Positions 20,946 to 45,401 of a stretch of 64,000 nt of DNA are shown here, piece after piece. The position numbers were made by a program, and so were the translations under genes. The stretch's first letter is position 1. Every line of letters starts with the position of its first letter. Source of the stretch: a virus; the IMG/VR virus record IMGVR_UViG_3300027963_003275, positions 1-64,000 of that record, one strand, 5' to 3'. The notes under the pieces are model-generated. The model was not told where the DNA came from and searched no databases. It saw only the letters and a program-made list of their open reading frames with translations.

Positions 20946-20978
20946 TATATAAGGGGAGTGTTACTGCTCTCCTTTCTT

Positions 20979-21389
20979 ATGTTTAAATTTGGAAAACAAA
21001 AACCAGATATAAAACAATATGCAATCATAGGAATTGTATTGAGTTCTATTATTGCAACACTTTCCCAATGTAGTGGTATTAAGCAAGATAGTATTTGGGA
21101 CTTACTTGACGAAGTTCAAAGAAGATATTTCCCACAAACTATTCTCAACGACTTTGTGATTAAAGATCCAGAGAAACTTGATAGAAGAATCAATCGTGAT
21201 GTTGATGCAGCAATCGCAGAGTATGAACGATTGACAGGAGATGATGGAAAGGTTAAAATACCTTCACCACGATACTCAGAGAAACCACAAGACGGGTCTT
21301 ATGCCCAATCAGTTCTTGGAGGTGAAATGAGATTGTGTGCTCCATGGGTTGATGACTGCCCAAAAGATGCGAAATTAATTCAGCGGTAG
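20979..21389 (+). CDS. Membrane-anchored hypothetical protein whose end overlaps tRNA-Gly
   Basis: From the ATG at 20979 it is 136 aa, with one hydrophobic segment at about residues 14-32 (YAIIGIVLSSIIATLSQCS). A Cys there only loosely resembles a lipobox. A periplasmic-type acidic domain follows. It is placed after the lysozyme-like gene, so a lysis or entry role is possible. Its last codons and TAG stop lie inside the tRNA-Gly gene (21 nt overlap), which is unusual. Confidence 0.6.
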   Translation: MFKFGKQKPDIKQYAIIGIVLSSIIATLSQCSGIKQDSIWDLLDEVQRRYFPQTILNDFVIKDPEKLDRRINRDVDAAIAEYERLTGDDGKVKIPSPRYSEKPQDGSYAQSVLGGEMRLCAPWVDDCPKDAKLIQR

Positions 21390-28058: not shown

Positions 28059-28810
28059 AAAAAATATTACTAGTTTTTGCTGATTATAAAGATCAAAGGC
28101 AAAATTTCTTTGATACTTACATGTCTCCAAGAAATCAAGAATATGCAGAAAAGCATGGATTTGAATATCTTGAATTGAAAGAAAATCTTTATAAGTATCG
28201 TGGAAGTTATACTTGGTTAAAATTTACTATTCTTGAGCAAATGCTTGAAGAGGGATACATTGAAGATGGAGATATAGTAACCCATATTGATGCTGATATG
28301 TGCGTTGCAAAAACAAATATTCCATACGAGACAACAAAATCTTTTTCATATTCTATTGATTCTGGAAATACTCATTGTATGGGATCTTTTTCTATTAAAA
28401 TTAATGAATGGTCTAGACAATTAATTTTAAATATTCTTTCAGAAGATAGATATAAAGCACTCAATGATGCTGTATCTAAACATGAAAGATTTGGATATGT
28501 GAATAGTTTTTGGCATGAATTTCGTGAACAAGCATCTTGGTATTCTCTTGCAGGAATTAAAAGACATTCTGATGAACCATTTTGGAATTTATCTGATTTT
28601 GGGTGGCATTCATCAAAAGATGAATGGACAATTTATTCTTTGGAAGAACTTTATGAACATGTTGAAGTTCTTCCGACTGCTTGGAATGTTACTGAACTTG
28701 AGGGAGAATCCTCTTGTGAGTTTTTAATAAATAAAATACCAAGAGATGATGTAATTATTCGTCATTTTGCTGGTGGTCAACAATGGAGAAAGGAGTGGTT
28801 TGAACAATGA
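28055..28810 (+). CDS. GT-A glycosyltransferase (GT34/GMA12-like)
   Basis: The 251-aa product opens KKILLVFADYKDQRQNFF, has HIDADMCVAK (a DxD-type site) near residue 77 and a late VIIRHFAGGQQWRKE with a conserved His. This resembles galactosyl/mannosyl transferases of the GMA12 type. It is expressed from the same operon with 4-nt overlaps on both sides. Confidence 0.6.
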   Translation: MKKILLVFADYKDQRQNFFDTYMSPRNQEYAEKHGFEYLELKENLYKYRGSYTWLKFTILEQMLEEGYIEDGDIVTHIDADMCVAKTNIPYETTKSFSYSIDSGNTHCMGSFSIKINEWSRQLILNILSEDRYKALNDAVSKHERFGYVNSFWHEFREQASWYSLAGIKRHSDEPFWNLSDFGWHSSKDEWTIYSLEELYEHVEVLPTAWNVTELEGESSCEFLINKIPRDDVIIRHFAGGQQWRKEWFEQ

Positions 28811-29463
28811 AAGTTGCATTGTGTCTTAGTGGTCAAATAAGAAGTCATGAATTAGTTAAAGGTAGTATAAAAAAACATTTGCTTGATTTGTATAATTGTG
28901 ATGTTTTTTGCCATTTCTGGCATAAGTATGATAATGAAAAATATAAAAATTTTTATAATCCTCAGTGTGCAAGTGATTATGGAATTTTTGATGATAAAAA
29001 AATAAAAGATGTTATTGATTTTTATAAACCAAAATCATTAAAATATAGTTTTCCTTTTTTTGATCAGAATACCAAGAGTATGTTATATTCAATCTGTGAA
29101 TCAAATAAGTTAAAATCTGAATATGAAAAACACAATAATGTAAAATATGATTTGGTTATAAAATGTAGATATGATATGATGTTTAAAGGTGATTTAAACA
29201 TACCAAAAATTCAAGAAAATTTAATATATTTGCTTAATAGACCTGGTGGTTGTGGTGGATATGGGGATTGGGTTGTATATGGAAATACAAAGATAATGGA
29301 TATTTATATGAATGCATATGAAATTTATAAAAATACTGAAAGAATTTTGCAACCATGTCCAGAAGGAATTTATTATGAATATCTGAATAATATGGGGGTT
29401 GCGGTTAATTACATAGATAGAGTTTTTTCTGTAGTTAGGGAAGATGGACTTGAAGTTATATGA
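28807..29463 (+). CDS. Putative glycosyltransferase, ALCLSGQIR family
   Basis: The 218-aa product starts VALCLSGQIRSHE, a hallmark of a poorly described family in LPS clusters. It later has YDLVIKCRYDMMFKGD, an Arg-x-Asp element likely to bind metal and nucleotide sugar. A GGYGDWVVYG segment follows. The sugar and linkage are unknown. It overlaps its neighbours by 4 nt on both sides. Confidence 0.6.
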   Translation: MKVALCLSGQIRSHELVKGSIKKHLLDLYNCDVFCHFWHKYDNEKYKNFYNPQCASDYGIFDDKKIKDVIDFYKPKSLKYSFPFFDQNTKSMLYSICESNKLKSEYEKHNNVKYDLVIKCRYDMMFKGDLNIPKIQENLIYLLNRPGGCGGYGDWVVYGNTKIMDIYMNAYEIYKNTERILQPCPEGIYYEYLNNMGVAVNYIDRVFSVVREDGLEVI

Positions 29464-30221
29464 AATATGCTATTTGTTATAGAGGAATAAGTTATAAAGA
29501 AAATTATTTTAATGAACCAGGACTTAATTCTTACAATGTAGATTTTTGTGAATGTCTTCCTTCTAATAAAAAATATCTTATTGATCCTTTAGTTGAAAAG
29601 AAAAATAATGTTGATGTGTTTTTTAATACATATGATTCACTTAGATTGAGTGAATATATAAATGAATTAAAACCAGTAGATATAAATTTAAAACAATTTA
29701 ATTCATCTATACAAAAATATAATTTTTCACATGTAACTCAAATTATAATTGATTCTCTTGAACAGATTAAGAAGTATCAAAATGATAATAATATTGAGTA
29801 TGATTATATAATTTTAACAAGATTCGATATTGTTTTATTGAATGATTTTTCTGAAATATATTTGCCAGAAAATGCTATTTCAGTTCCTACAAGAAATGAT
29901 GATTGTTTTATTGTAATATCAGGAAATCTTTTAAATGATGCTATTGAAATTTATAAAAATAATCAACATAAATGTATTACACATCATATGGTTTATAAAT
30001 TTTTGGAAAATGGCATAAGATACCATGCAATGTATCCAAATAAACCTGGTGATGAATGTGGATATAAAGCACCTTTTTGGAGACTTGCGAGAGTTGTGCT
30101 TACTCCAGATGGACATAATGTTAAAGAATACAATTTAGAAGATGTTTATGATAAAAATTCTAAATATTATGGATTTTTATATCCTCCACATGAAAAATAT
30201 ATTAAAGTTGCTTTAGAATAA
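29460..30221 (+). CDS. Putative glycosyltransferase related to the preceding gene
   Basis: The 253-aa product has the same overall plan as the gene before it: an ICYRGISYKENY opening, a VDVFFNTYDS block and YDYIILTRFDIVLLND with an R-x-D core. The two may be diverged duplicates acting in sequence on one glycan. It is very AT-rich, and its stop shares a base with the next start. Confidence 0.55.
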   Translation: MKYAICYRGISYKENYFNEPGLNSYNVDFCECLPSNKKYLIDPLVEKKNNVDVFFNTYDSLRLSEYINELKPVDINLKQFNSSIQKYNFSHVTQIIIDSLEQIKKYQNDNNIEYDYIILTRFDIVLLNDFSEIYLPENAISVPTRNDDCFIVISGNLLNDAIEIYKNNQHKCITHHMVYKFLENGIRYHAMYPNKPGDECGYKAPFWRLARVVLTPDGHNVKEYNLEDVYDKNSKYYGFLYPPHEKYIKVALE

Positions 30222-30565
30222 TGAATAATACAATAAAAAAACCTTGGGGTTCTTATATAAATCTCCTTGATGAGGATTATACAAAAGTTAAAAAAATTAT
30301 TATCAATCCAGAAGAAGCACCTAGTTATCAATATCATTTTAAAAGAAGTGAAGTTTGGATAATTGTGAAGGGTCAAGCAGAAGTTAAAATAAATGATGTT
30401 GTAATACAACATTTTGTTGGTGATGTTATTCGTATCCCAAAAGAAGCAGCACATCAAGTAAAAAATACTGGTGAAGATGAATTAATTTTTATTGAAGTTC
30501 AACTTGGTGAGTATTTTGGTGAAGATGATATTGTAAGATTGGAGGATAAGTATGGTAGAGTATAA
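30221..30565 (+). CDS. Mannose-6-phosphate isomerase type II, stand-alone cupin
   Basis: The 114-aa protein equals the C-terminal cupin of bifunctional ManC/AlgA enzymes: KPWGSY at the start, YQYHFKRSEVW with metal-binding His and Glu, IPKEAAHQVKN, and the ending EVQLGEYFGEDDIVRLEDKYGR. It would convert fructose-6-phosphate to mannose-6-phosphate, feeding GDP-mannose for Gmd. No separate phosphomannomutase is seen. It overlaps the next gene by 14 nt. Confidence 0.85.
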   Translation: MNNTIKKPWGSYINLLDEDYTKVKKIIINPEEAPSYQYHFKRSEVWIIVKGQAEVKINDVVIQHFVGDVIRIPKEAAHQVKNTGEDELIFIEVQLGEYFGEDDIVRLEDKYGRV

Positions 30566-32099
30566 GGTTCTATTAACAACAAGTGGACTTGGATCTAGAC
30601 TTGGAAACATAACTAAGTTTACTAACAAGAGTTTGGTGCGAGTAGGTGATAAAGCAGTGATTTCTCATATTATTGAGACATATCCTAAAGATGTTGAGTT
30701 TATTGTAACACTGGGGCATTATGGATCTCATGTGAAACAGTATCTGTCTTTAGCACACCCAGATCGTAATATTACTTTTGTTGAAGTTGGTAACTATATG
30801 GGAGAGGGTAGTAGTTTGCTCTATTCCATTTCCTTATGTGAAGAATATTTGCAGTGTCCTTTTGTCTTTCATGCTTGCGATACAATTCTTCCAAAAAATT
30901 ATATTGCTGATGTTGATTTTTCATCTAACTGGTCTGTTGGTGGAATTGGAAACAATAGTCAGTCATATAGAACTCTTAACTGTTTGAATGGAAAAATTTT
31001 ATCCATCAATGAAAAGGGTGAGCAAAACTTTGACTATGTTTATATTGGAGTTTCTGGTTTTTATGATTATGAAATTTTCTGGAACACATGTAAAAATATT
31101 CTTAAAACAGTTAATACTAATGATTTAAGTGATTGTCATGTTATTCGCAAGATGAATGATTTTTCAGTTGTATCTATTGGTGATTGGCATGATATTGGAA
31201 ATATTGACGCACTCAAAAGAACTCGTTCAAAAATGAAAGAAACAATACAAGTTCTTGATAAGGAAGATGAAAATATTTTTATCTTTGATGATTTTGTGAT
31301 TAAGTTTTTTCATAATAAAAAGATTTGTTATGATAGGGTGCTAAGAAGTGCCAGTTTAAGTGGTTTAACTCCTAAACTTTTAGATAGCACTGAAAACTTT
31401 TATAAGTATGAATATGTTGTAGCAGACTTGTTATCTGATGTTGTAAACCGTATTAAGTTTTCTGAATTGTTGCACTGGGCAAAAGAAAACCTCTGGGTTT
31501 CTAAAGAACAAGAAAACTTTTTTGATAATGCACTATCTTTTTACAAAGATAAAACTTTAATGAGAATTGAAAAGTTTTTAGATAAACATAATTTATTAGA
31601 TAAAGTGGATTATATCAATGGTATTGAAGTTCCTAAAATTAAAGATCTCATCTCGCAAATAAAATTTGAAGATATTGTAGGTAAAAGACCTACAGGATTT
31701 CATGGTGATTTTATTCTTGATAACATCTTAACTTCAGAGTCATTTACATTAATTGATTGGAGACAAGATTTTAATGGCATAATTGAGTCTGGTGATATGA
31801 ATTATGATCTTGCTAAGTTAAATCATAATTTAGTGTTAAATCATGACATGTTATATCATAATTATTTTGAGATTTATTTTTCTGAAAGTATTACTTGTGA
31901 TGTTCATGTAAAAAAATCTTTAATTGACTGTAAGAGTATTCTTAAAGAATTTTGTGAAGAGAATGATATAAACTTTAATAGTATTGAAATACTTACTTCT
32001 TTAATATGGATTAATATGTCTCCCCTACATGAGCATCCACTTGATATGTTTTTATATTATTTTGGAAAGTATAATTTGTTTCTATCGTTATCTAAATGA
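30552..32099 (+). CDS. Sugar-phosphate nucleotidyltransferase fused to an APH/choline-kinase-like kinase
   Basis: The 515-aa protein has two enzymes in one chain. Residues 1-220 form a nucleotidyltransferase with TSGLGSRLG (the G-x-G-x-R nucleotide loop) and a Lys in TNKSLVRV. From about 230 a protein-kinase-like fold follows, with GFHGDFILDNILT as the H-G-D-x4-N catalytic loop and LIDWRQDF as the metal-binding Asp. It probably phosphorylates a small alcohol or sugar and then activates it with a nucleotide. The layout recalls LicA plus LicC, but the substrate is unknown. Confidence 0.7.
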   Translation: MVEYKVLLTTSGLGSRLGNITKFTNKSLVRVGDKAVISHIIETYPKDVEFIVTLGHYGSHVKQYLSLAHPDRNITFVEVGNYMGEGSSLLYSISLCEEYLQCPFVFHACDTILPKNYIADVDFSSNWSVGGIGNNSQSYRTLNCLNGKILSINEKGEQNFDYVYIGVSGFYDYEIFWNTCKNILKTVNTNDLSDCHVIRKMNDFSVVSIGDWHDIGNIDALKRTRSKMKETIQVLDKEDENIFIFDDFVIKFFHNKKICYDRVLRSASLSGLTPKLLDSTENFYKYEYVVADLLSDVVNRIKFSELLHWAKENLWVSKEQENFFDNALSFYKDKTLMRIEKFLDKHNLLDKVDYINGIEVPKIKDLISQIKFEDIVGKRPTGFHGDFILDNILTSESFTLIDWRQDFNGIIESGDMNYDLAKLNHNLVLNHDMLYHNYFEIYFSESITCDVHVKKSLIDCKSILKEFCEENDINFNSIEILTSLIWINMSPLHEHPLDMFLYYFGKYNLFLSLSK

Positions 32100-33085
32100 A
32101 ATTCCCAAAATATTACATAGGACCGATGAGTAAAAATGTTGTTGACTGTGTTATTGAACACAGTCAAAAATATCCTATTGGTCTTATTCCATCAAGAAGG
32201 CAGGTGGATTATTGTGGTGGTTATGTGAATAAATGGGATACTGGAAGTTTTTCAAACTACCTCAAAAGCAAAAAAGTTTTACTATGTAGAGATCATGGTG
32301 GACCAAAACAAGGTTTAAATGAAGATGATGGTATTGAATCTTTTTTAAATGACTGTGAAAACTTACAATTAATTCACATTGATCCATTTAAAGACTCTAC
32401 TTCTGTGTATGAAGCAGCAGAAAAAACCGTATCTTACATAAAACTTTGTTTTTCAAAAAATCCAAAAGTTTTTTATGAAGTGGGAACAGAAGAAGCAATT
32501 TTTAAATATGAACCAGAACATTTGAATCGGTTTCTTTCATATTTAAAACTATATCTTACTGAGGAAGAATTTTTACAAATTAAATATGCTGTTGTTCAAT
32601 CTGGAACAAGACTTGATTTATCAACTAGAACTAATACTGGAAACTTTAATAATAACAGACTTCTTAACTTTATTGAAGTTGTAAAAGAATTTAATTTGAT
32701 GAGTAAAGAGCATAATGGAGATTACTTAATTGATTCATTTGATGTTGGGACTCGTTATGCCTCTGGACTTGATGCAATTAATATTGCACCAGAATTTGGA
32801 CAAATAGAGTCTGAGTTTTATTTGGAACAGTGTAAAGGAAGTTCTTTATTTGATGATCTATATGAAATATGCTATACTTCTGGTAAATGGAAAAAATGGA
32901 TTTTTAACTTAAATAGAGTCTCAAAAGAACAAATCATCATCACCTGTTGTCATTATGTTTTATCAGATCAACAGTTTGAAGATAAAATAAAAAAACATTT
33001 TGAAAATGCTGATAAATTAATACAGAAAAAAATTAATTCTAAATTAAAATTATTAAATGAACAAACAAAAAATTATTGCATTTGA
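32096..33085 (+). CDS. GatZ/KbaZ-like TIM-barrel protein (sugar aldolase type)
   Basis: The 329-aa protein shows PIGLIPSRRQVDYCGGYVN, CRDHGGPKQG, IHIDPFKD, YEVGTEEAI and a late LDAINIAPEFGQIES. These fit the barrel of tagatose-bisphosphate aldolase subunit GatZ/KbaZ-like proteins. It may cleave or form a sugar phosphate for an unusual sugar. It is flanked by the nucleotidyltransferase-kinase fusion and a HAD phosphatase, suggesting one pathway. It overlaps both neighbours. Confidence 0.55.
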   Translation: MKFPKYYIGPMSKNVVDCVIEHSQKYPIGLIPSRRQVDYCGGYVNKWDTGSFSNYLKSKKVLLCRDHGGPKQGLNEDDGIESFLNDCENLQLIHIDPFKDSTSVYEAAEKTVSYIKLCFSKNPKVFYEVGTEEAIFKYEPEHLNRFLSYLKLYLTEEEFLQIKYAVVQSGTRLDLSTRTNTGNFNNNRLLNFIEVVKEFNLMSKEHNGDYLIDSFDVGTRYASGLDAINIAPEFGQIESEFYLEQCKGSSLFDDLYEICYTSGKWKKWIFNLNRVSKEQIIITCCHYVLSDQQFEDKIKKHFENADKLIQKKINSKLKLLNEQTKNYCI

Positions 33086-33431
33086 TTTGGATGACGTTCT
33101 TTGTACTCGTCATTTAAAATATGATTATCTTGGTCCAAAAAAATATCTTCATTGCGAACCAATTCAAACAAATATTAAAATTGTTAATGAGTTATACGAT
33201 AAAGGAAATGTTATTGTGATTTATACTGCCAGAGGAATGACTCAGTTTTCTGGGGATGTTTCTAGAATATATTCTGAATTATATCAAATAACTTATAATT
33301 GTTTAAAAACTTGGGGAGTACAATTTCATCAACTTGTAATGGGAAAAATAAGTTATGATGTATTAATAGATGATAAATGTTTAAATTCTAATAATATAAC
33401 TCTAGATTACATTAAAAAATTTCTTGAATAA
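33057..33431 (+). CDS. HAD-family sugar-phosphate phosphatase (capsule type)
   Basis: The 124-aa protein has motif I FDLDDVLC (nucleophile Asp and acid Asp), motif II IYTARG, and a C-terminal VLIDDKC with the metal-binding Asp pair. It is a small capless HAD as found in capsule clusters and likely removes phosphate from a sugar. It overlaps the aldolase-like gene by 29 nt. Confidence 0.75.
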   Translation: MNKQKIIAFDLDDVLCTRHLKYDYLGPKKYLHCEPIQTNIKIVNELYDKGNVIVIYTARGMTQFSGDVSRIYSELYQITYNCLKTWGVQFHQLVMGKISYDVLIDDKCLNSNNITLDYIKKFLE

Positions 33432-33434
33432 AAA

Positions 33435-34184
33435 ATGAAAAAAATTAAAAAAATCACAATATGTCTTCACTGTGGTTGCAGTAGAGAAATTGTAAATTAC
33501 CAAATGGAACAATTAGATTCCTTGAATCTAAAGTATAAAGTGTCGTGGAATAATAGGATTGATAGAAATCCTGGAATGTATGAATCTTATTCAGAACTAA
33601 TAAATCATTCTGTTGCAACTTCCAATGATGAATGGATTATTTTAATTAATGATAGAACACATCCAACTGTTGATGAAGTTGAAAAAATGATTAGACTTCT
33701 TGAAAGTGGATATGCGTGTGTTCTTCTTTATAATGTTGGATTTATGGGATTTTCCAAAGAACTTATAAGAACCATTGGATGGTGGGATCAAAGATTTACT
33801 TATGGTGGATGGGAGGATCGTGATTGGGTGTGGAGAATCAAAAAGGCAAATCTAGCATTATATGAAAGTCAAGAAGGTACTTATGATATGAGTTGGAAGT
33901 CTCCATTGAATGTTCCTGGAGCAGTTTTATCTGGACAATTTTGGGATAAAAAATATGATACATCCAATTCACATGTTGTTTACCAAAAAATATCTGAAGA
34001 AGAATATCCAAAATGGGATATAAATTTGGGAGAATCCAACGAAGATATAAAAAATTCTTGGAAAACTTGGAATGAATCTAAACTAAATATAATGTATAAT
34101 CAGATTTATAGACCTGGATCTGGTCCTTCTGGTTCAGCAATTTTAAATAATAGAAACATTGTAGAGGTATTTAATGAACATTGA
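33435..34184 (+). CDS. GT-A glycosyltransferase (GT2/GT7C-like)
   Basis: The 249-aa protein has an INDRTHPT acidic strand near residue 72 and FTYGGWEDRDWVWRIKKA near 127-144. The latter is the galactosyltransferase C-terminal motif (W-x-x-E-D) that binds the acceptor and holds the catalytic acid. No membrane segment is visible. The start is an ATG 3 nt after the HAD gene; the end overlaps the methyltransferase by 11 nt. Confidence 0.7.
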   Translation: MKKIKKITICLHCGCSREIVNYQMEQLDSLNLKYKVSWNNRIDRNPGMYESYSELINHSVATSNDEWIILINDRTHPTVDEVEKMIRLLESGYACVLLYNVGFMGFSKELIRTIGWWDQRFTYGGWEDRDWVWRIKKANLALYESQEGTYDMSWKSPLNVPGAVLSGQFWDKKYDTSNSHVVYQKISEEEYPKWDINLGESNEDIKNSWKTWNESKLNIMYNQIYRPGSGPSGSAILNNRNIVEVFNEH

Positions 34185-34794
34185 TCAAATAGAAATTGAT
34201 ATTCTTAACTCAAAAGAGTATCCAAAAGATGATTTTCCAATTCCATGTGGAAGAAATACTTTTTATACAGAATGTATGGAATATGTTAAGGATAGGGAAG
34301 GTTTATTTTTAGAATTTGGTGTTTTTCAGGGTGGAACTATTAATTTTATGTCTTCAATTTTAAAAGATAAAATCTTTTATGGATTTGATTCTTTTGAAGG
34401 TCTTCCTGAAGATTGGGATGGAGGGGATCATAGCATACATCCTGCTGGATGGTTTAAAACTGAAATTCCTATTGTAAATGATAATGTGAATCTTATTGCT
34501 GGATGGTACGATCAAACATTGGAAAAGTTTTTGGAAAATTATACATCTAGTATTTCCTTTATTCATCTTGATTGTGATATCTATTCTTCCCACAGTTATG
34601 TTCTTGAAAAACTTGAAAATCGCATTGAGGATGATTGTCTAATTATATTTGATGATTTTTTGAATTTCCCTAATTATAAAAATCATAGCATTAAGGTATT
34701 TTTGGAATTTTTGGAAAGAAATAAGTTCTCATATAAACCATTTGGGCATATTAGGGAAGATTATTCTAGATGTGCTTTTATTGTAAAAAAATAA
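34174..34794 (+). CDS. TylF/MycF-like O-methyltransferase
   Basis: The 206-aa class I SAM-dependent methyltransferase has LEFGVFQGGTINF (SAM loop), FYGFDSFEGLPEDW, and an IHLDCDIYSS plus IIFDDF metal site. This is the pattern of macrocin-type sugar O-methyltransferases. It probably methylates a hydroxyl on the phage-modified glycan. It is followed by a 15-nt gap, one of the few in the operon. Confidence 0.8.
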   Translation: MNIDQIEIDILNSKEYPKDDFPIPCGRNTFYTECMEYVKDREGLFLEFGVFQGGTINFMSSILKDKIFYGFDSFEGLPEDWDGGDHSIHPAGWFKTEIPIVNDNVNLIAGWYDQTLEKFLENYTSSISFIHLDCDIYSSHSYVLEKLENRIEDDCLIIFDDFLNFPNYKNHSIKVFLEFLERNKFSYKPFGHIREDYSRCAFIVKK

Positions 34795-34809
34795 AGTATT
34801 AATTTAATA

Positions 34810-35775
34810 ATGAGAATTCTTTTTATAACAACTCAAAATCCAACAAAACAAGGAGATCTTTTGGAAGTATCCTTACTTCGTGGATTGAGAGAATTGTTAG
34901 GTGATGATTGTGTCGATTATCCAAGAAAAAAAATTATGTATCATGATTTTTCTGATACACCCAAAGAAACTCTTCATGGTAGAGGATTTTCTTTGCTGAC
35001 AACTCCAATATCTGAAATTAAAAATAGAGATATTTTTAATCAAAAATTTGATATAGTTCTTTATGGTGATGGACATATGTATGGAGAAGATCCATATATT
35101 GAGGGTATAAATGAATTAGCAGATGGAAATACTTGGATAATTGATGGTCATGATTTATATGGAAATGCCCCAAGAAAAATATTATATGATGGTGAAGAAA
35201 TTATAGGAACTCAATTTACTAATTGCTTTAAACGAGAATTAATTGAGGAAGATGATGATGATACAGTATTTCCTACAGGATTTGGTATTCCAGAAGAAAG
35301 AATAATGGAAATGGATTTTTCTATTAAGGATCAACTCTATCAAAAAACTGCTCCAGCATTTTCTTTATTTGAAAATATAAATGACATTGGTGGTGGATTT
35401 TCTCATCATAAATTTGAAATTGAGGAAGAGTATTACGATGATCTTTCTAGATCATGGTTTGGTCTTACTTGCAAAAAAGGTGGATGGGATTGTTTGAGGC
35501 ATTATGAAATTATTGCTGCAGGATCTTTGCTTCTTTTTAGAGATTATGATAAAAAACCAAAATTATGCTCACCACAGGAACTACCTTGCTTTTCTTACAG
35601 AACTAAAAATGAACTATATAATTTGATGTCCAAATTAGTAGTGGATAATAAACCAACACAAGAATATTTGGATATGATTGACACACAAAGACAATGGTTG
35701 TATAATGTTGGAACAACTTTAGCTCGTGCTAAAAATATGATTCAAAATTTAAAAAAATACTTAGAGATAAAATGA
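34810..35775 (+). CDS. Glycosyltransferase-like protein (CgeB/GT1-like)
   Basis: The 321-aa protein opens MRILFITTQNPTKQGD and has WIIDGHDLYG in the middle. A C-terminal SRSWFGLTCKKGGWDCLRHYEIIAAGSLLLF is typical of GT-B enzymes that end in a Glu-containing nucleotide-sugar site. It is likely a transferase of the same glycan. It overlaps the next gene by 4 nt. Confidence 0.6.
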   Translation: MRILFITTQNPTKQGDLLEVSLLRGLRELLGDDCVDYPRKKIMYHDFSDTPKETLHGRGFSLLTTPISEIKNRDIFNQKFDIVLYGDGHMYGEDPYIEGINELADGNTWIIDGHDLYGNAPRKILYDGEEIIGTQFTNCFKRELIEEDDDDTVFPTGFGIPEERIMEMDFSIKDQLYQKTAPAFSLFENINDIGGGFSHHKFEIEEEYYDDLSRSWFGLTCKKGGWDCLRHYEIIAAGSLLLFRDYDKKPKLCSPQELPCFSYRTKNELYNLMSKLVVDNKPTQEYLDMIDTQRQWLYNVGTTLARAKNMIQNLKKYLEIK

Positions 35776-36422
35776 GTTACTCTTTACACAATTTGGATAC
35801 ATTGATGTTGGAATATATCAATTATACTGATGGATTTTTTGTAGAAGCCGGTGCCAATGATGGACTTTCTCAATCTAATACTGCTCTGTATGAATTTGAT
35901 TACGGTTGGAACGGGTTATTAGTAGAACCAAACTTTAAAAAATATCTTGATTGTAAAAAAATTAGAAAAAATTCTATAGTTGAAAATTATGCTTTAGTTA
36001 GTTCAAATTACACACATAAAACAATAAAAGGTGATTTTGACAATCAAGATTGTCAAAATAGTCTTATGTCTATGGTAATTGATGATGGTGATTATCAAGA
36101 TGATAATCTTTTATACTACAGAAATGAAAAAGTAAAAAATAATAAGATAATAGAAGTTCCCGTAATAACGATAGATGAACTTTTGACTGTACATAAAATA
36201 TCTAAAATTGATTTTTTTTCTTTGGATGTTGAAGGATATGAAATATCAGTTTTAAATGGAATGGATTTTTCCAACATAAGACCTAAATATTTTTTAATAG
36301 AAACCGCAAATAAAGAAAACTATCAAAAAACTGTTAGGAACTATATGAAAGATAAAGATTATTGTTTTATTACAAGATTAAGTGGAAATGATGATTTATT
36401 TGTAGATAATACTATAGGATGA
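35772..36422 (+). CDS. FkbM-family methyltransferase
   Basis: The 216-aa protein has FFVEAGANDGLSQSN as the SAM loop, GLLVEPNF as the acidic strand 2, and IDFFSLDVEGYEISVLNG, the family signature. FkbM enzymes O-methylate sugars and other small molecules. It is one of three methyltransferases in the cluster. It sits 7 nt before an epimerase-like gene. Confidence 0.8.
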   Translation: MSYSLHNLDTLMLEYINYTDGFFVEAGANDGLSQSNTALYEFDYGWNGLLVEPNFKKYLDCKKIRKNSIVENYALVSSNYTHKTIKGDFDNQDCQNSLMSMVIDDGDYQDDNLLYYRNEKVKNNKIIEVPVITIDELLTVHKISKIDFFSLDVEGYEISVLNGMDFSNIRPKYFLIETANKENYQKTVRNYMKDKDYCFITRLSGNDDLFVDNTIG

Positions 36423-36429
36423 TATCAAT

Positions 36430-37356
36430 ATGGAAAAAATATTTTTAACTGGTGGAACTGGATTTCTTGGAAAAGAAATAATAAAAAAATACTATGGTAC
36501 TCATGAAATATCTGTTTATTCTAGGGATGAAGCTAAACAGTATTATTTGAAAAAGCAATATCCTAATTTGAACTGTATTTGTGGTGATGTTAGAAATTTT
36601 GATTTATTAAAAAGAGTATCTAAAGGTCACGATATTGGAATTTTTGCTGCATCATTTAAACAAATACAAGCCTGCCATGATAACTATGAAGAGGCAAATC
36701 AAGTCATAGTTCAAGGAGCTTTTAATAGTAGAAAATGTTCGGAGGATAATGGATTTAAATCTGCTTGTTTCATTTCAAGTGATAAGAGTAGGTCTGCAAC
36801 AACAATTTATGGGGCAATGAAGTATGTTGCTGGAGAATCTTTTATTTCAAATTATGAAAAATCAAACGTAAATTTAAGCACAGTAGTTTATGGTAATGTC
36901 TTGAATAGCACTGGAAGTATTCTACCACTTATTTGGAAAAGTATTTTGGAGGGATTTAGTTTATCTCTTTATGGTGAAGATATGACTAGATTTTTTATAG
37001 AAGTTAAGGATGCTGTTGAATTAATTGAGACAGCTTTGAATTATACAGGATATAATGTTATTCCCATAATTCACAGTATTAAAATTAAAGATTTATTTGA
37101 TATTTTTAAAGAAGAATTTGGATTAAAATATTCTGTTTCAACTTTAAGAAGTTGTGAAAAGAATCATGAAATAATGGCATCTTCAGATGAACTACCTAGA
37201 ATGAAAAAGAAGAATAACGTATACTTAATGCACCAAACTGAAATTTATAATAAACTTCAGTTTCAAAATAATCAATATTCCTCACAAGATTTTGTCATTA
37301 GTCGAGAAGTATTGTATAATATTTTGAAAGCTAATAATTTTTATAAACCGTTATGA
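36430..37356 (+). CDS. NAD-dependent sugar-nucleotide dehydratase (CapD/PseB-like)
   Basis: The 308-aa extended SDR has TGGTGFLGKEII at the cofactor site, YSRDEAKQ, GDVRNFDLL, FKQIQACHDN, ISSDKSRSAT and the YGAMK catalytic Tyr/Lys. The order matches UDP-HexNAc 4,6-dehydratases such as CapE or PseB. It pairs with the RmlD-like reductase that follows, so a 6-deoxy amino sugar is a reasonable product. The exact substrate is not proven. Confidence 0.75.
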   Translation: MEKIFLTGGTGFLGKEIIKKYYGTHEISVYSRDEAKQYYLKKQYPNLNCICGDVRNFDLLKRVSKGHDIGIFAASFKQIQACHDNYEEANQVIVQGAFNSRKCSEDNGFKSACFISSDKSRSATTIYGAMKYVAGESFISNYEKSNVNLSTVVYGNVLNSTGSILPLIWKSILEGFSLSLYGEDMTRFFIEVKDAVELIETALNYTGYNVIPIIHSIKIKDLFDIFKEEFGLKYSVSTLRSCEKNHEIMASSDELPRMKKKNNVYLMHQTEIYNKLQFQNNQYSSQDFVISREVLYNILKANNFYKPL

Positions 37357-38144
37357 GAATTTTTATTTTTGGCTCCAGTGGAATGTTGGGAACCTATTTG
37401 GTTAAATATTTAAAAAATAATTTCAATGTAGTTCCAATCACAAGAAATGAATTTGATTTATTATCCGATTTTAAATTATTAAAAGAAAAATATGATTTCA
37501 ATTCTTCTGATATTATTATCAATGCTGCAGGTATAATAAAACAAAGGAATTTTCATTATGAAGAATTGATTGTAGTTAATAGTTTATTTCCACATTTTTT
37601 ATCTCAGTTGAAAAATGAATATAATTGTAAAGTTATTCATATATCAACTGATTGTGTTTTTAGTGGAAAAGATGGGGGATATAATGAAGATTCACCTCAT
37701 GATTGTGTAGATGAATATGGGAAAAGTAAATCTTTAGGTGAAAATGAGAATCTAACTATTATTAGGACCTCAATTATAGGAGAAGAAATAAGAAATAAAA
37801 AATCTCTTCTTGAGTGGATTTGCTCTAAATCAAATTCAGATGTAAATGGATATATTAATCATTTTTGGAATGGAGTTACTTGTTTAGAATTGAGCAAACA
37901 GATTGAAACTATTATCATTGAACATAAATACTGGGAAGGGATTAAACATTATTATTCATATGATAATGTTAGTAAATATCAGTTGATTTCATTTATAAAT
38001 GAAATCTATAAACTGAATAATAATATAATTCCAATAATAGAAAAATATTGTGATAGGACGTTAACATCAAAATTTAGTTGCCCTGTTAAAAAAACAATAA
38101 AAGAGCAGATTGTAGAAATGAAAAATTTTACTATACATCATTAA
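37353..38144 (+). CDS. RmlD-like sugar-nucleotide reductase
   Basis: The 263-aa protein has FGSSGMLGTYL for NAD(P), IINAAGIIKQ, HISTDCVFSGKDGGY and YGKSKSLGE with the Tyr/Lys pair. This is the dTDP-4-dehydrorhamnose reductase or CapF family. It overlaps the dehydratase by 4 nt, suggesting it reduces that product. A 32-nt gap without a recognised promoter follows. Confidence 0.75.
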   Translation: MRIFIFGSSGMLGTYLVKYLKNNFNVVPITRNEFDLLSDFKLLKEKYDFNSSDIIINAAGIIKQRNFHYEELIVVNSLFPHFLSQLKNEYNCKVIHISTDCVFSGKDGGYNEDSPHDCVDEYGKSKSLGENENLTIIRTSIIGEEIRNKKSLLEWICSKSNSDVNGYINHFWNGVTCLELSKQIETIIIEHKYWEGIKHYYSYDNVSKYQLISFINEIYKLNNNIIPIIEKYCDRTLTSKFSCPVKKTIKEQIVEMKNFTIHH

Positions 38145-38176
38145 TTATTAAAAAATTTACATAAATTGAGATTTAA

Positions 38177-39166
38177 ATGAAAATAGCATTCCATAGTTAT
38201 CAACTGGGCGATCGGGGAACTGAAATTTGTTTGTATAAGTATGCAAAATACAATAGAGAAATTCTAGGTAATGAATCTATTATTATTTCTACTAGTTCTA
38301 GACCTACTCCATCTTTGGATAGATTTAAAGATTTTGAAACTATTCTCTACCCAGATGTGTGGATCAATGATGGTAAAAATGATTCTCTTCGTAATACTTT
38401 AGAAAATATTTGCGAAAAAAATAATGTAGATGTTTTTTATGCTATTAAAGGTGGAGAAGATGATGGATTTATGCCAACTAATACTAAAAGATTAGCACAC
38501 TGTATTTTTAGAATGGATCAACCTCATGGAGATGTGTATTCTGGGGTGTGTAAGTATATTTCAGAGAAACATGGTGGAATACATCCATATGTTCATCACA
38601 TTTTAGAAAAGGAAGCACCAGAAGTTGAAGATGATTTTAGAGAAGAATTTGGCATTCCTAAAGATGCTTTAGTTCTTGGTAGACATGGTGGATATGATAC
38701 TTTTAATTTGTCATTTGCACATTCTTCTATTCGATCTGCTTTGGAGAAAAGAAAAGATCTTTGGTTTGTTTTTTTAAACACAAATCCTTTTATCTATCAC
38801 GAAAGGGTAATTTATTTGCCTTGGACTATGGATGAAAAATACAAAGCAAAATTCGTAAATACATGCGATGCAATGATTCATGCTAGATATGATGGTGAAA
38901 TTTTTAGTTTGTCTACTGCTGAATTTTCAATTAGAAATAAACCAGTTATAACTTGGAATCCACCAAATCCTCCAAGTCATTATGATACTGGGCATATTTA
39001 TCTTATGAAAGATGATGCTATTTACTATAATGATGAAAATGAATTACTTTTTATTTTAATAAATTTGGATAAAAATGAAATAAAAAATTTAGAATGGGGT
39101 AAATATTGTAGTGATTATACTGCAGAAAAAGTAATGAATGAATTTGAAGAGGTTTATTTAAAATGA
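38177..39166 (+). CDS. GT-B glycosyltransferase (GT4-like)
   Basis: The 329-aa protein begins MKIAFHSYQLGDRGTEI, with a glycine-rich donor loop. It has FGIPKDALVLGRHGG near the linker and HARYDGEIFSLSTAEFSI as the E-x7-E-like donor site. This is the retaining GT4 pattern. It is probably peripheral at the membrane. Confidence 0.7.
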   Translation: MKIAFHSYQLGDRGTEICLYKYAKYNREILGNESIIISTSSRPTPSLDRFKDFETILYPDVWINDGKNDSLRNTLENICEKNNVDVFYAIKGGEDDGFMPTNTKRLAHCIFRMDQPHGDVYSGVCKYISEKHGGIHPYVHHILEKEAPEVEDDFREEFGIPKDALVLGRHGGYDTFNLSFAHSSIRSALEKRKDLWFVFLNTNPFIYHERVIYLPWTMDEKYKAKFVNTCDAMIHARYDGEIFSLSTAEFSIRNKPVITWNPPNPPSHYDTGHIYLMKDDAIYYNDENELLFILINLDKNEIKNLEWGKYCSDYTAEKVMNEFEEVYLK

Positions 39167-39747
39167 AAAAAGTTTTTATTGATTGTGGTTCTAATGTTGG
39201 GCAAGGATTGAGGCAATTTATTAATATGTTTAATATTAATAGTGAGTGGGAAATACATTGCTATGAACCAACACCAAATTTATATTTGGAACAAGATTTA
39301 CTTAATTTGCCAAATGTGACATTACATAAATCTGCAGTGTGGAATAAAAACGGGACAATAAAATTTTCTCTTTGTATCCCAAGTGAAAAATGGGAAGAGG
39401 CATCTCAGGGATCTTCAGTTTTGGGTTTATTGGATTTAGAAGAATGTATAGATCCAAATTCCAATCAATTTAGGTTAAATGATAATATAGTAGATGTTGA
39501 ATCAATTGATATTAATGATATATTAAAAAAATATTCTAAAGATGATTATATTATTGTAAAACTTGATATTGAAGGTTCTGAATTTGAAGTTTGTAGAAGA
39601 CTTTTGGAAGGCAATGAAATAGTTAAAATAAATGAACTTTTTGTAGAATGGCATACTAGACTGATGGATTCTGAATCTATAGAATCTGAAAATAGTATTA
39701 AAGATTCTATCAGAAGATGTGGTGTAAATTTACATGATTGGCATTGA
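39163..39747 (+). CDS. FkbM-family methyltransferase
   Basis: The 194-aa protein shows VFIDCGSNVGQGLRQF, HCYEPTPN and YIIVKLDIEGSEFEVCRRLL, the FkbM set. It differs from the FkbM gene at 35772, so the two probably modify different positions. The stop overlaps the kinase start (TGATG). Confidence 0.8.
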   Translation: MKKVFIDCGSNVGQGLRQFINMFNINSEWEIHCYEPTPNLYLEQDLLNLPNVTLHKSAVWNKNGTIKFSLCIPSEKWEEASQGSSVLGLLDLEECIDPNSNQFRLNDNIVDVESIDINDILKKYSKDDYIIVKLDIEGSEFEVCRRLLEGNEIVKINELFVEWHTRLMDSESIESENSIKDSIRRCGVNLHDWH

Positions 39748-40694
39748 TGATTATTGCAAGTTGTCCTTTAAGAATATCTCTTTTTGGTGGATCTACTGAT
39801 AATCCATATTTTGTTGAAAAATATGGTAAAGGTTCTGTGATAAGTTTTACATCCAACTTAAAAACTTACATTACTTTACATGAAGATAAACTTGGGTATA
39901 ATATGCAGGGTCGTAAGTATATTGTAAATTATTCTAAAAGAGAAGAGACTGAATTTGTTGGTGATATTAAGAATGAACTTGTTCGTATTGTTTTGAATTA
40001 TTTTGGATGTAAACCATTAACAGTGAGTATGACAAGTGATGCATATTCGCAGGGTAGTGGTTTGGCATCTTCGTCATCTTATATTATTTCTCTTATTAAG
40101 TGCATTTCAATCTTTAGTGAACTACATTTGACTGATACTGAAATTTGTAAATTATCTCTTAAATTAGAACAGGAAATGAATCCCTATTGTGGGTATCAAG
40201 ATCCTTATGGTTGTGGTGTTGGTGGATTTAAAAGAATTGATTTTGAAAGAGGAGGTATTATTAAATATGACTTCTTATCAACAGATTTTTTTAAACATTA
40301 TGATGCTCATTTGATTTTTACTGGAGTGACAAGAAACTCTAAAAATGTTCTTCAAGATGTGACTGCCAATATTGATAAATCTTTACCTTTACTTAAACTT
40401 GTGGATGATGCATATGATGCTTTAACGCAAAAAGACTATCCTTCATTTTTGGAACTATTGAATCAAAGTTGGGGACATAAAAAAGCAACGAGTTCTCTGA
40501 TAACTGAAAATGAGCAAATACAAAAAATAGACAAAGTTCTTTCCAATAATAAAGACGTGATTGCTCATAAGTTGTGTGGTGCAGGTAATGGGGGGTTTTT
40601 TTTAGTTTTTTCAAAACCAAATACCTTGAAAATTCCTTACAAATCAATTAAAATAGATGTAGAATCGAGTGGTGTAGTTGGAACAAAATTATGA
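39747..40694 (+). CDS. GHMP sugar kinase (HddA-like)
   Basis: From the ATG at 39747 the protein is 315 aa. It has CPLRISLFGGSTD at the start, SQGSGLASSSSYIISLI as the ATP-binding loop, and CGAGNGGFFLVF near the end. This is the pattern of the heptose-7-phosphate or fucose kinase group. It sits beside a SIS isomerase and a nucleotidyltransferase as in GDP-heptose clusters. An upstream TTG start is not preferred. Confidence 0.8.
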   Translation: MIIASCPLRISLFGGSTDNPYFVEKYGKGSVISFTSNLKTYITLHEDKLGYNMQGRKYIVNYSKREETEFVGDIKNELVRIVLNYFGCKPLTVSMTSDAYSQGSGLASSSSYIISLIKCISIFSELHLTDTEICKLSLKLEQEMNPYCGYQDPYGCGVGGFKRIDFERGGIIKYDFLSTDFFKHYDAHLIFTGVTRNSKNVLQDVTANIDKSLPLLKLVDDAYDALTQKDYPSFLELLNQSWGHKKATSSLITENEQIQKIDKVLSNNKDVIAHKLCGAGNGGFFLVFSKPNTLKIPYKSIKIDVESSGVVGTKL

Positions 40695-41194
40695 ATCCTT
40701 TTTTAAATTATATTAAAGCACTCCAAGGTGCTCATATTGAAGAGCAATTTTCTAAGTTTAAATGTGCCTTTAACAACTATGACAATATTATAATTCTTGG
40801 TAATGGTGGAAGTAATTCAGTTGCATCACATATTTCTCAAGATTATGTGAAGTTTCACAATAAGAATTCTTTGGTTTTTTCTGATCCATCAATGCTTACG
40901 TGTTTTATTAATGATTTTGGAATGGAGAATGCATATTCTAAATTCCTTCAATATTATGCTAAGACAGATACTCTTTGTATTTTAATTAGTTCAGGTGGGG
41001 AATCTAAGAATATTATTAATTGTATCAGGTATTGTGAAAGTAATGCAATTCCTTATGGTATTTTAACTGGATTTAATTTTACAAATAAAGCAAGAAGTAT
41101 TGCTAATAATGCTCTTTGGGACTATCATATTAATAGTAAAGATTATGGAATTGTTGAATGTGTACATCAAATATTTCTTCATGGAGTTGTATGA
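40691..41194 (+). CDS. SIS-domain sugar isomerase (GmhA-like)
   Basis: The 167-aa protein has IILGNGGSNSVASHISQDYVK and LISSGGESKNI, the phosphosugar-binding loops of sedoheptulose-7-phosphate isomerase GmhA. It would make D-glycero-D-manno-heptose-7-phosphate for the adjacent kinase. It overlaps both neighbours by 4 nt. Confidence 0.8.
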   Translation: MNPFLNYIKALQGAHIEEQFSKFKCAFNNYDNIIILGNGGSNSVASHISQDYVKFHNKNSLVFSDPSMLTCFINDFGMENAYSKFLQYYAKTDTLCILISSGGESKNIINCIRYCESNAIPYGILTGFNFTNKARSIANNALWDYHINSKDYGIVECVHQIFLHGVV

Positions 41195-41622
41195 AAGGAA
41201 TACTTGCTGGTGCATTTGATGTAATTCATCCTGGATATATTCGTATGTTTAAGGATGCTAAATTATATTGTAATCATTTGACGGTTGCACTTCATGAAGA
41301 TCCATCTGTAGAAAGATCACACAAACTTCAACCAATTCAAAGTGTTGAAGAAAGAATTGAAATTCTTAGAAGTATCAAATATATTAATGATGTAGTCACT
41401 TATAAAATAGAAGAACAATATCTTGACTATTTGAACAGTGGTGAATATGATATGAGGTTTCTAGGTACTGATTACAAAACCAGACCCTATACGGGACAAG
41501 ATATTCCAATTGATATTGTTTGGTTAGATAGAGAATCCCATGAATATTCATCCACAAAATTAAAAACACAAATTTACGAATCAGTTTTATTAAAAAAAAT
41601 AGAAAATAAAAATTATGACTAA
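41191..41622 (+). CDS. Cytidylyltransferase-type nucleotidyltransferase
   Basis: From the ATG at 41191 the protein is 143 aa. GAFDVIHPGYIRMF carries the HxGY variant of the HxGH catalytic site, and ESHEYSSTKLK is the C-terminal STxxR-like site. It resembles the nucleotidyltransferase half of HldE or TagD. It likely activates the heptose or glycerol phosphate made by its neighbours. Confidence 0.75.
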   Translation: MKGILAGAFDVIHPGYIRMFKDAKLYCNHLTVALHEDPSVERSHKLQPIQSVEERIEILRSIKYINDVVTYKIEEQYLDYLNSGEYDMRFLGTDYKTRPYTGQDIPIDIVWLDRESHEYSSTKLKTQIYESVLLKKIENKNYD

Positions 41623-42511
41623 ATGTTTAGTTACAGGAGCAGCAGGATTTATTGGTTCAAATCTTGTTGATGAATTGATCAAACAGGGGCATCAAGTTAT
41701 CGGAATTGATAATGAAAGTGCAGAATCCAATGAAGAATTTTATTGGAATAATAAATCTCAAAATTATAAGTATGATATTTGTGATTATGAAAAAACTAGA
41801 CCTCTTTATGATGGGGTTGATTATGTTTTTCATCTTGCCGCAGAATCACGTATTCAACCAGCAATTTTAAATCCAATTGAGGCAGTCACTAAAAATTGTG
41901 TTGGTACTTGTACTGTTCTTCAGTGTGCTAGAGAAGCAAGAGTGAAGAAAGTAATTTATTCATCTACATCTTCTGGTTATGGATTTAATGAACCACCAAA
42001 TAACGAAAATCAACCTGATGATTGTTTAAATCCATATTCAGTATCCAAAGTTGCAGGGGAAAAACTTTGTAAAATGTATAATGACTTGTTTGGACTTAAA
42101 ACAGTTATTTTTAGGTACTTTAATGTTTATGGTGAAAGACAACCAATTAAAGGTCAATATGCTCCAGTAATTGGTATTTTCTTACGTCAACGAAAGGATG
42201 GTGAACCTCTTACAATCGTTGGTGATGGAGAACAACGTAGAGACTTCACACACGTATCTGATGTAGTTCAAGCAAATATTCTTGCGGCAACAAAAGATGT
42301 GAATGATGAATTTTATGGAGAACTTTATAATGTAGGTAATGGAGTTAATTATTCAATTAATGAAATTGCAAATAATATTTCTGATAATCAAATAAATATT
42401 CCAGCAAGAATTGGTGAGTCAAGAACTACTCTTGCAAATAATGGAAAATTGAGAACCATTTTTGGATGGAGACCTCAAGTAAATTTAATGGATTGGATTA
42501 AAACTCAATGA
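41615..42511 (+). CDS. NAD-dependent sugar-nucleotide epimerase
   Basis: The 298-aa protein has TGAAGFIGSNLVDELI, the YSSTSSGYG and PYSVSKVAGE active-site segments, RYFNVYGERQ and GDGEQRRDFTHVSDVV. This is the UDP-glucose 4-epimerase / heptose epimerase family. It could epimerise a hexose or the activated heptose. It overlaps the previous gene by 8 nt. Confidence 0.85.
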   Translation: MTKCLVTGAAGFIGSNLVDELIKQGHQVIGIDNESAESNEEFYWNNKSQNYKYDICDYEKTRPLYDGVDYVFHLAAESRIQPAILNPIEAVTKNCVGTCTVLQCAREARVKKVIYSSTSSGYGFNEPPNNENQPDDCLNPYSVSKVAGEKLCKMYNDLFGLKTVIFRYFNVYGERQPIKGQYAPVIGIFLRQRKDGEPLTIVGDGEQRRDFTHVSDVVQANILAATKDVNDEFYGELYNVGNGVNYSINEIANNISDNQINIPARIGESRTTLANNGKLRTIFGWRPQVNLMDWIKTQ

Positions 42512-43206
42512 ATTTATTAATAGAATATTTTAGATCTGATGATTATCAGAGACATAGTGAATATCTTACTTGCATTCACGAGAATTTAGAAAATGAACAT
42601 ATTGAAAAAATATATGTTTTTGTTTCCGATGATTCTAAATTAAATTTTAAATCAGATAAATTGGAAATTGTCCAAATAGATGAACGTCCTACATACAAAG
42701 ATTTATTTGAGTTTTGTAATACAAATTTAAATAATCAAATTTGTATTATTTCAAATGCAGATATTATTTTTGATGATACTATATCAAATCTAAAAGAAGT
42801 TAATCTTCTGGAGGTCTTTATTGCTCTGACTAGATGGGAAGTATTTTGTGAAAATGGTGAATGGTGTATCGCACCATTTAATAATTCATCATCTCAGGAT
42901 GTATGGGCATTCCAAACCCCAATCAAAGTTACAGACGAAATGAATTTCCATCTTGGAAAACCTAGATGTGATAATAAGATTGCAAAATTAATATCAGAAA
43001 ATTATGAAATTCGTAACCCAGGACTTCAAATTATAACTTCCCATTTTCACATGTCTGGATATAGAACTTATTCTGGTAACGAAGGAATGCCTGGACCTTA
43101 TCTTTGTCTAGCTCCAAACGATGACATTAATAAAAAAACAGAATATATTGAAATTGATGGATTTCATGAAAATGGAATGGCTTATAGGATAGAAAAAAAT
43201 CAATAA
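42508..43206 (+). CDS. Putative glycosyltransferase, last gene of the glycan operon
   Basis: The 232-aa protein has ICIISNADIIFDDTI (acidic strand) near residue 90, SQDVWAFQTP, and FHMSGYRTYSGNEG. These occur in a poorly described glycosyltransferase-like group. No membrane helix is visible. It ends just before a sigma-70 promoter for hli, so the operon stops here, although no terminator is obvious. Confidence 0.55.
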   Translation: MNLLIEYFRSDDYQRHSEYLTCIHENLENEHIEKIYVFVSDDSKLNFKSDKLEIVQIDERPTYKDLFEFCNTNLNNQICIISNADIIFDDTISNLKEVNLLEVFIALTRWEVFCENGEWCIAPFNNSSSQDVWAFQTPIKVTDEMNFHLGKPRCDNKIAKLISENYEIRNPGLQIITSHFHMSGYRTYSGNEGMPGPYLCLAPNDDINKKTEYIEIDGFHENGMAYRIEKNQ

Positions 43207-43654: not shown

Positions 43655-44335
43655 ATGACCTTAGATCTTCATAACTTTTTTAAGTATTATGATGATAAGA
43701 ATGCAAATCACGTAGCAGCAGTGCAATGGTTAGAGGATAATCTTCCTGCTGAATATATGGATGATTCGGAAACAGATTGGGTAAAAATTTTTAGAACCAA
43801 ACCACCAACTCCTGCAGTTCTTGCAGTTCCTTATTTCAATCAAGTAGATAACTATAGAGATGCTCACCGTACTTGTAATAGTTCTTCTTGTGCCATGTGC
43901 CTTGAGTTTTTAAAACCAGGTACGCTCAAAGGAGCAAAGGGTGATGATGCTTATGTTCAAAAAGTATTTGCAATTGGAGACTCAACAGATCATGCGGTTC
44001 AAACCCGTGTTCTTGAAGGTTATGGTGTTAAGTCACATTTCAGTTACAATCTTTCTTTTGCTGATATTGATAAGAGTTTATCTGCTGGTAAACCTGTCGT
44101 TATTGGTATTCTTCATAGGGGTTCTCTTTCTGCACCTACTGGTGGGCACATGGTTGTAGTGATTGGTACTACTCCAGATGGTAAAGGTTATTATATCAAT
44201 GACCCTTATGGTTCATTGAATGATAATTATACTGGTCCTGTAACCAATGGACAAAAGACCATTTATACCAAAGCAGTACTCAAACATCGTTGGTGCCCAG
44301 GGGGCAATGACGGTTGGGGTCGTATTTTTCATTAA
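43655..44335 (+). CDS. C39-like cysteine peptidase with shared N-terminal domain
   Basis: The 226-aa protein has an N-terminal ~47-residue domain (DLHNFFKYYDDKNANHV, then QWLEDNLP and WVKIFR) that also begins the next gene. From about residue 58 a papain-like C39 fold follows: Q63, C79 in NSSSCAM, H165 in GGHMVVVIG and D183 in INDPYG. It could cut peptide cross-links or proteins during lysis. No signal peptide is visible, so holin release is likely needed. Late expression fits. Confidence 0.75.
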   Translation: MTLDLHNFFKYYDDKNANHVAAVQWLEDNLPAEYMDDSETDWVKIFRTKPPTPAVLAVPYFNQVDNYRDAHRTCNSSSCAMCLEFLKPGTLKGAKGDDAYVQKVFAIGDSTDHAVQTRVLEGYGVKSHFSYNLSFADIDKSLSAGKPVVIGILHRGSLSAPTGGHMVVVIGTTPDGKGYYINDPYGSLNDNYTGPVTNGQKTIYTKAVLKHRWCPGGNDGWGRIFH

Positions 44336-44354
44336 TCATTAAGGAGAAAAGACA

Positions 44355-45020
44355 ATGGCAAAAGTAGATTTACATAACTTTTTTAAGTTTTATGATGAGA
44401 AGAACCCCAACCATGTGAAGGGTATTCAGTGGTTGGAAGATCATTTACCCGTCAAGTATCTTGAAGATGATGTTGAATGGGCAGAAATCTATAGAGGAAA
44501 AAAGCATAGTGCTGTAGCAGCATCTGCTCCTGCCGTTACAGCATCTGGTGGTGATGATATGCCTATGATGGGACTAAAACTCATCAAAGAGTTTGAAGGA
44601 TGTAGATTAAATGCTTATCCTGATCCTCTTTCTGGAGGACTTCCAATCACAATTGGTTGGGGTGGAACTCGTAAGAAAGATGGGTCACCATTTCACATAG
44701 GTGATAAGATTACTCAAGCAGAAGCAGATGAACTTTTAATTGAAGAATGTAAGCACAACTTTCTTCCATCACTTCGTAAAATCCCACATTGGGGTGAAAT
44801 GTCTGATGGTAAAAGAGGAGCTCTACTCAGCTTTGCCTATAATTTGGGTGCTGGTTTTTATGGTAGTGGTGATTTTAATACTATCACTAAAAGACTGAAG
44901 AATAAAGAATGGGACTTAGTTCCCGATGCGCTTTACTTATACAGAAATCCTGGATCTAATGTAGAAGCAGGATTAGCACGTAGAAGAAAAGCAGAAGGTG
45001 AATCTTGGAAAAAAGGTTAA
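44355..45020 (+). CDS. Endolysin: GH24 lysozyme with shared N-terminal domain
   Basis: The 221-aa protein starts with DLHNFFKFYDEKNPNHV, QWLEDHLP and EWAEIYR, closely like the preceding peptidase. An Ala-rich linker (50-68) follows, then a T4-type lysozyme: FEG with catalytic E81, YPD with D90, and ITIGWGG with T99. It hydrolyses peptidoglycan glycan strands at lysis. A good AAGGAG ribosome site lies just upstream. Confidence 0.88.
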   Translation: MAKVDLHNFFKFYDEKNPNHVKGIQWLEDHLPVKYLEDDVEWAEIYRGKKHSAVAASAPAVTASGGDDMPMMGLKLIKEFEGCRLNAYPDPLSGGLPITIGWGGTRKKDGSPFHIGDKITQAEADELLIEECKHNFLPSLRKIPHWGEMSDGKRGALLSFAYNLGAGFYGSGDFNTITKRLKNKEWDLVPDALYLYRNPGSNVEAGLARRRKAEGESWKKG

Positions 45021-45038: not shown

Positions 45039-45401
45039 ATGACTAACAAGAAAAACGAAAATGCTATGGGACAATTAATTCGTATATGTATCTTGGGTTG
45101 GTCTGCTGCTCTTCTTACAGCAAGTTATGCTGGTACTTTATCTAAGATGGATCCCACATTCATTGCTACAGTCTTCACTGCATCTGCTGCCACTTTTGGT
45201 ATTAATACAATGAAGAAAGGTGGTGATGAGGAGGATGAAAAGAAAGGAGAACCAAAGAGAGAAGAGTTTGTAGAAATTCCTCCAGAACCACCTGTTTCAC
45301 CAGAACCAGATGTTTCAGCAAATGCTGAAACAACAACATCCCTTGAAGAAAGAGTTGAAGCATTGGAAGAAGGTTTTGTTCAACCTCGCACAGGGGCATA
45401 A
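45039..45401 (+). CDS. Holin candidate, two membrane helices
   Basis: The 120-aa protein has two hydrophobic helices (about 13-31, IRICILGWSAALLTASYAG, and 38-56) and then a long charged, Pro- and Glu-rich tail. This is the layout of class II holins, which form the lethal membrane hole that releases the endolysin. It directly follows the lysozyme gene. Its stop overlaps the next micro-gene. Membership is inferred from topology and context only. Confidence 0.6.
   Translation: MTNKKNENAMGQLIRICILGWSAALLTASYAGTLSKMDPTFIATVFTASAATFGINTMKKGGDEEDEKKGEPKREEFVEIPPEPPVSPEPDVSANAETTTSLEERVEALEEGFVQPRTGA

Follow-up and report, generated by a model that had tools for sequence, protein, structure and literature searches.

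A predicted three-helix module shared by wall enzymes of cyanobacteria and their phages

Introduction

Cyanophage lysis is poorly understood, and its enzymes are usually annotated by their catalytic part alone. The DNA analysed here (the window, 64,000 nucleotides from the start of IMG/VR record IMGVR_UViG_3300027963_003275) is part of a T4-like cyanophage contig, with psbA at position 50394, nrdA/nrdB-type genes at 12296 and 14571 and a high-light-inducible gene at 43276. Two neighbouring genes encode a C39-like cysteine peptidase and a GH24 lysozyme whose N-terminal parts are closely alike (Table 1). What is this common part, how did it come to stand on both enzymes, and what might it do there?

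Table 1 Lysis genes of the window and their parts
Feature	Position	Strand	Evidence
Gene 1, module and C39-like cysteine peptidase, 226 aa	43655..44335	+	ORF and Pfam
Module copy 1, gene 1 residues 1-49	43655..43801	+	BLASTP, profiles
Peptidase_C39_2 catalytic domain, gene 1 residues 56-185	43820..44209	+	Pfam
Gene 2, module and GH24 lysozyme, 221 aa	44355..45020	+	ORF and Pfam
Module copy 2, gene 2 residues 1-49	44355..44501	+	BLASTP, AlphaFold
Alanine-rich linker, module to lysozyme	44502..44573	+	sequence reading
GH24 Phage_lysozyme domain, gene 2 residues 78-214	44586..44996	+	Pfam
Candidate holin, 120 aa, hydrophobic N-terminus, charged C-terminus	45039..45401	+	inferred

Results and discussion

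Gene 1 belongs to Peptidase_C39_2 (PF13529; Pfam E=1e-14, 55.7 bits against a cut-off of 24), with catalytic residues C74, H165 and D183 invariant among its relatives, and the fold matches of its full model in the PDB are C39-like and double-glycine peptidases as well as the pseudomurein endoisopeptidase PeiR. Gene 2 is a GH24 Phage_lysozyme (PF00959; 3.9e-21, 76.1 bits, cut-off 22.3) whose Glu/Asp/Thr motifs (EFEG, YPDP and TIG) are kept in 219 of 221 relatives. Neither Pfam match reaches into the shared N-terminal part. There, peptidase residues 3–49 align with lysozyme residues 4–49 with 27 of 47 identical (57%, 83% positives, BLASTP E=1e-18), and both proteins contain DLHNFFK, YD-K-N-NHV and QWLED-LP, while past the module BLASTP of the two full proteins gives no significant alignment. 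The likeness of the first ~47 residues, and its coupling to unrelated catalytic domains of different Pfam families, are thus as originally described. A profile of the module matches exactly two ORFs of the window, the two lysis enzymes, and nothing in a copy of 18,957 ORFs with shuffled letters; the E-value, these shuffle controls and the leave-out profiles described below rule out chance similarity.

The tandem pair of module-C39 and module-GH24 genes occurs at 205 of the IMG/VR loci examined, in 127 distinct DNA versions that differ mostly at third codon positions. Nearly all of these loci retain the motifs that surround C, H and D in the peptidase, together with the E/D/T motifs of GH24. 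The candidate holin gene starts 18 bp past the lysozyme gene; a homologue lies downstream of GH24 in 189 of 218 related loci, at most 50 bp away in 114, and although its PHROG family is annotated as of unknown function, a holin of this cassette is a plausible identity for such a membrane-type protein, judged from its sequence. An export signal or SAR helix in either enzyme can be dismissed, as the first 60 residues of each hold no hydrophobic stretch.

The module, 40–50 residues long with a consensus core of 40, is predicted to form a compact three-helix domain (helices at residues 6–11, 18–30 and 41–47 of copy 2; AlphaFold, mean pLDDT 91). Forty diverse modules matched no family in Pfam-A at E<=1 or in NCBIfam, there was no match to PDB sequences, and a Foldseek search of the model against the PDB returned nothing significant, so the fold offers no functional hint. 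The best BFVD match of the model is the lysozyme module of ACG-2014f (TM 0.85, E 0.006); the second, C7F4E4 (408 aa, TM 0.67, E 0.89), is likely the module protein of PSS2, which has the same length. PHROGs yielded endolysin-type families and one weak match. A known domain is therefore ruled out across Pfam, NCBIfam, PHROGs and the PDB, and the pattern, unrecognised in the original prediction, has neither a Pfam or NCBIfam model nor a description that we could find in the open-licence literature. It is best read as an undescribed, so far unnamed building block of cyanobacterial and cyanophage wall enzymes.

Among cyanophages, profiles built with one group left out recovered the omitted group for myo-, sipho- and podoviruses of Synechococcus and Prochlorococcus, at scores that none of 1000 shuffles per sequence reached; even the weakest recoveries (S-CRM01, S-CBS2 and S-CRES3) scored 16.6–17.8 bits, whereas their shuffles did not exceed 8.1. 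The module is found with C39 and GH24 in the orders module-C39, module-GH24, module-C39-GH24 (fused, PHROG 3617), GH24-module-C39 (PHROG 10051; the two fused arrangements are seen in ACG-2014f and S-CREM1) and, with a further M15 domain, module-GH24-M15 (S-CBS3 and S-LBS1). With GH73 it forms module-GH73, module-GH73-C39 and GH73-module-C39 (S-SRP01, S-CBS1, S-EIVl and PSS2), and with GH19 the orders module-GH19, module-C39-GH19, C39-module-GH19 and YkuD-module-GH19 (S-B28, S-CREM2, ME01, S-B68, B23 and KBS-S-2A), the YkuD L,D-transpeptidase being that of B23. These phage GH19 labels are provisional since the scores lie below the curated Pfam cut-off, which one host protein exceeds; for ME01 and KBS-S-2A, which have no Pfam call for GH19, it was assigned from similarity judged visually. 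The module is not essential, since many cyanophage C39 or GH24 proteins are without it. That C39 proteins can lack it (S-CBP3 and S-CREM2) and that it stands on GH24, GH19 and GH25 in proteins without C39 excludes its being part of the C39 fold.

A search with the module alone had been proposed as a check. When four variants were compared by tblastn with 50,697 phage records, essentially only cyanophages were returned, together with one uncultured phage and a group of Pectobacterium phages; the latter we regard as chance matches, being weak (E 0.1–0.6) and, in the one inspected, antisense to a gene.

How the pair in the window arose is suggested by a tree of 116 modules which, built on few columns, allows broad statements only. 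The copies carried by GH24 enzymes group in one supported clade, whose sister is the C39-borne copy of S-SZBM1 and which nests with the copies on C39 proteins of the phage group studied here. The simplest reading is that the lysozyme module stems from one duplication of the peptidase's module in the window lineage and has been kept since. The pair in this lineage looks more like a single local duplication than a module exchange particular to these two genes. One might go further and propose that the likeness is nothing but gene duplication, the lysozyme having taken over the start of the adjoining peptidase gene and the module having no function. The single clade within the C39-borne copies would agree with this, as would other myoviruses such as S-PM2 and S-SRM01 (and likewise S-CAM7), where a module-less GH24 comes after module-C39. 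Duplication accounts for the origin of the module in the pair but not for its retention, however: both copies persist across the 127 distinct versions, where most changes fall on the third base of a codon, and the module turns up again on numerous unrelated enzymes and, in hosts, as tandem copies, which makes a functionless module highly improbable.

In cyanobacteria, a genome scan seeded with module-C39 and then a 40-sequence module alignment detected the module in at least 35 of 339 sampled genomes (E<=1e-4), a lower bound because scoring was confined to 20 candidates in most large genomes. Controls from three other groups gave none in 347 genomes, the seed MAGs aside. Those three MAGs, labelled Phycisphaerales, proteobacterium and Microbacteriaceae (L283, L302 and L307), bear the module on cyanophage-like lysin genes; as no other sampled genome of their groups has it, they are likelier mis-binned cyanobacterial or phage contigs than real occurrences elsewhere. 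The module is thus best read, from the sequences sampled, as restricted to cyanobacteria and their phages.

Host proteins confirmed by Pfam include GH25-PG_binding_1 followed by five or four modules, amidase_3-module, module-M15, GH24-module-C39, module-C39-PG_binding_1-GH19, and PG_binding_1 repeats that precede modules or alternate with them. In the GH25 muramidases the module is C-terminal, behind PG_binding_1, in one to five tandem copies, the five-copy tail being that of a Zarconia protein. One or two modules may also precede C39, two being common in Leptolyngbya-like genomes. Inspection of sequences added YkuD-like proteins (L480-L482 and L485) and an exported trypsin-like serine protease with two C-terminal copies (L488, 278-1915), which indicates that peptidoglycan is not necessarily the substrate of an enzyme carrying the module. 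Some large host chains (L439, L440, L443 and L444) unite the module with C39, PG_binding_1 and GH19 and have no obvious signal peptide.

As is general for wall-binding domains of lysins, the module is shuffled, here among C39, GH24, GH73, GH19, M15, YkuD, GH25 and amidase_3. We consider it likely that it is an independently folding, non-catalytic three-helix domain which tethers peptidoglycan-cutting enzymes to the cyanobacterial wall. Of the original proposal of a small targeting domain on wall enzymes, the context stands (at least eight unrelated catalytic domains, PG_binding_1 and tandem arrays); binding to the wall itself we infer from that context. Phages and hosts would then use one module family, single or tandem. 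The peptidase and lysozyme of the window would form a two-gene lysis cassette in which C39 cleaves peptide bonds and GH24 glycan strands; they would cross the inner membrane presumably by means of the holin, and both would afterwards be held on the sacculus through the same receptor and so act at the same sites. The alanine-rich linker behind the lysozyme module is as expected for a tethered domain.

The module could alternatively be a protein docking domain that gathers the peptidase and the lysozyme, perhaps along with the holin or some other protein of the envelope, into one complex, as a single cassette for both enzymes and a small, conserved membrane protein, and the existence of a leaderless stand-alone module (below), might suggest. 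Many proteins nevertheless have a single module with no second module-bearing gene nearby, and up to five copies on one GH25 beside PG_binding_1 are what one expects of substrate-binding repeats and not of heteromeric docking, so we think such a role unlikely. A regulatory or inhibitory segment, active until release and with the stand-alone host protein as a related inhibitor, would suit the N-terminal position in many phage enzymes and the conservation of that host protein. Yet the module may be N-terminal, internal or C-terminal, on mechanistically unrelated enzymes, which makes one inhibitory contact hard to envisage and this role very unlikely.

The tethering role has a close parallel in the CW_7 repeats of the Cpl-7 endolysin, which are three-helix bundles of ~42 residues, arranged in tandem at the C-terminus of GH25 muramidases, found also on amidases, and common to phage lysins and host enzymes (PMC5705596, PMC3466307). 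The module shares their size and three-helix architecture, although its fold is predicted and has no PDB match, and it likewise forms tandem copies on GH25 or accompanies an amidase (GH25-PG_binding_1 with five or four modules; amidase_3-module). It differs in being limited to cyanobacteria and their phages and in being often N-terminal or internal, and the CW_7 profile matches none of the 40 modules (Pfam-A, E<=1), so that by sequence it is not a member. CW_7 repeats bind GlcNAc-MurNAc-dipeptide, and the best reading of the analogy is that the module works like them, presumably by binding the wall, while being unrelated in sequence. PG_binding_1 (PF01471), too, is a small helical accessory domain of wall hydrolases and adjoins the module in host proteins, but it differs in length and sequence and is not matched by the 40 modules in Pfam. 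PHROGs 3617 and 10051 hold the module within module-C39-GH24 and GH24-module-C39 lysins akin to the window pair; being whole-protein clusters, they neither separate nor name it, and 3617 is annotated as of unknown function. Finally, ORF123 of PaV-LD is an experimentally studied cyanophage wall endopeptidase which, like gene 1, stands in a two-gene lysis cassette; in contrast to the window enzymes it is an M23 peptidase with a transmembrane segment, and the part of the published account drawn on here reports no such module (PMC9096620).

A module confined to one lineage and common to phage and host enzymes offers a handle for annotating hundreds of genes now called 'hypothetical' or 'endolysin'. 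If it binds as proposed, it would also predict the receptor that lysins use on cyanobacterial sacculi and be usable directly as a binding tag to stain or engineer the walls of cyanobacteria.

The main fact at odds with a simple anchoring role is a leaderless stand-alone copy. A protein of ~55–67 residues consisting of the module, with no evident signal peptide, is encoded in 11 of 14 genomes (0.9–1.8 Mb) of one picocyanobacterial genus (loci L456, L461, L463, L470-L472 and L477-L479). Its gene is coding by the codon-position pattern (127/53/359), substitutions falling mostly at third positions, and in the six loci compared it is syntenic with a conserved gene for a ~395-aa protein that looks like a glucosylglycerate-type synthase. 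Wide spread in unrelated cytoplasmic proteins, which would speak against a targeting domain, was not seen beyond this one conserved protein. Its presence raises the question of lysin resistance or envelope control. In one speculative scheme, which we rate as unlikely, the module recognises a wall feature particular to cyanobacteria, such as their peptidoglycan-linked polysaccharide, and the stand-alone copy serves not as an anchor but as a decoy or competitor protecting the wall against the lysins of phages, or as a dedicated envelope regulator.

The window also encodes a second lysozyme-like protein (20307-20945; phrog_512, unknown function), directly followed by a membrane-type protein (20958-21389; phrog_3316). 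The ~19 kb directly upstream of the lysis genes (23829-43206) hold what by appearance are sugar and envelope-polysaccharide genes, among them those for a GDP-mannose dehydratase, a fucose synthase, epimerases, glycosyltransferases, methyltransferases and a sugar kinase.
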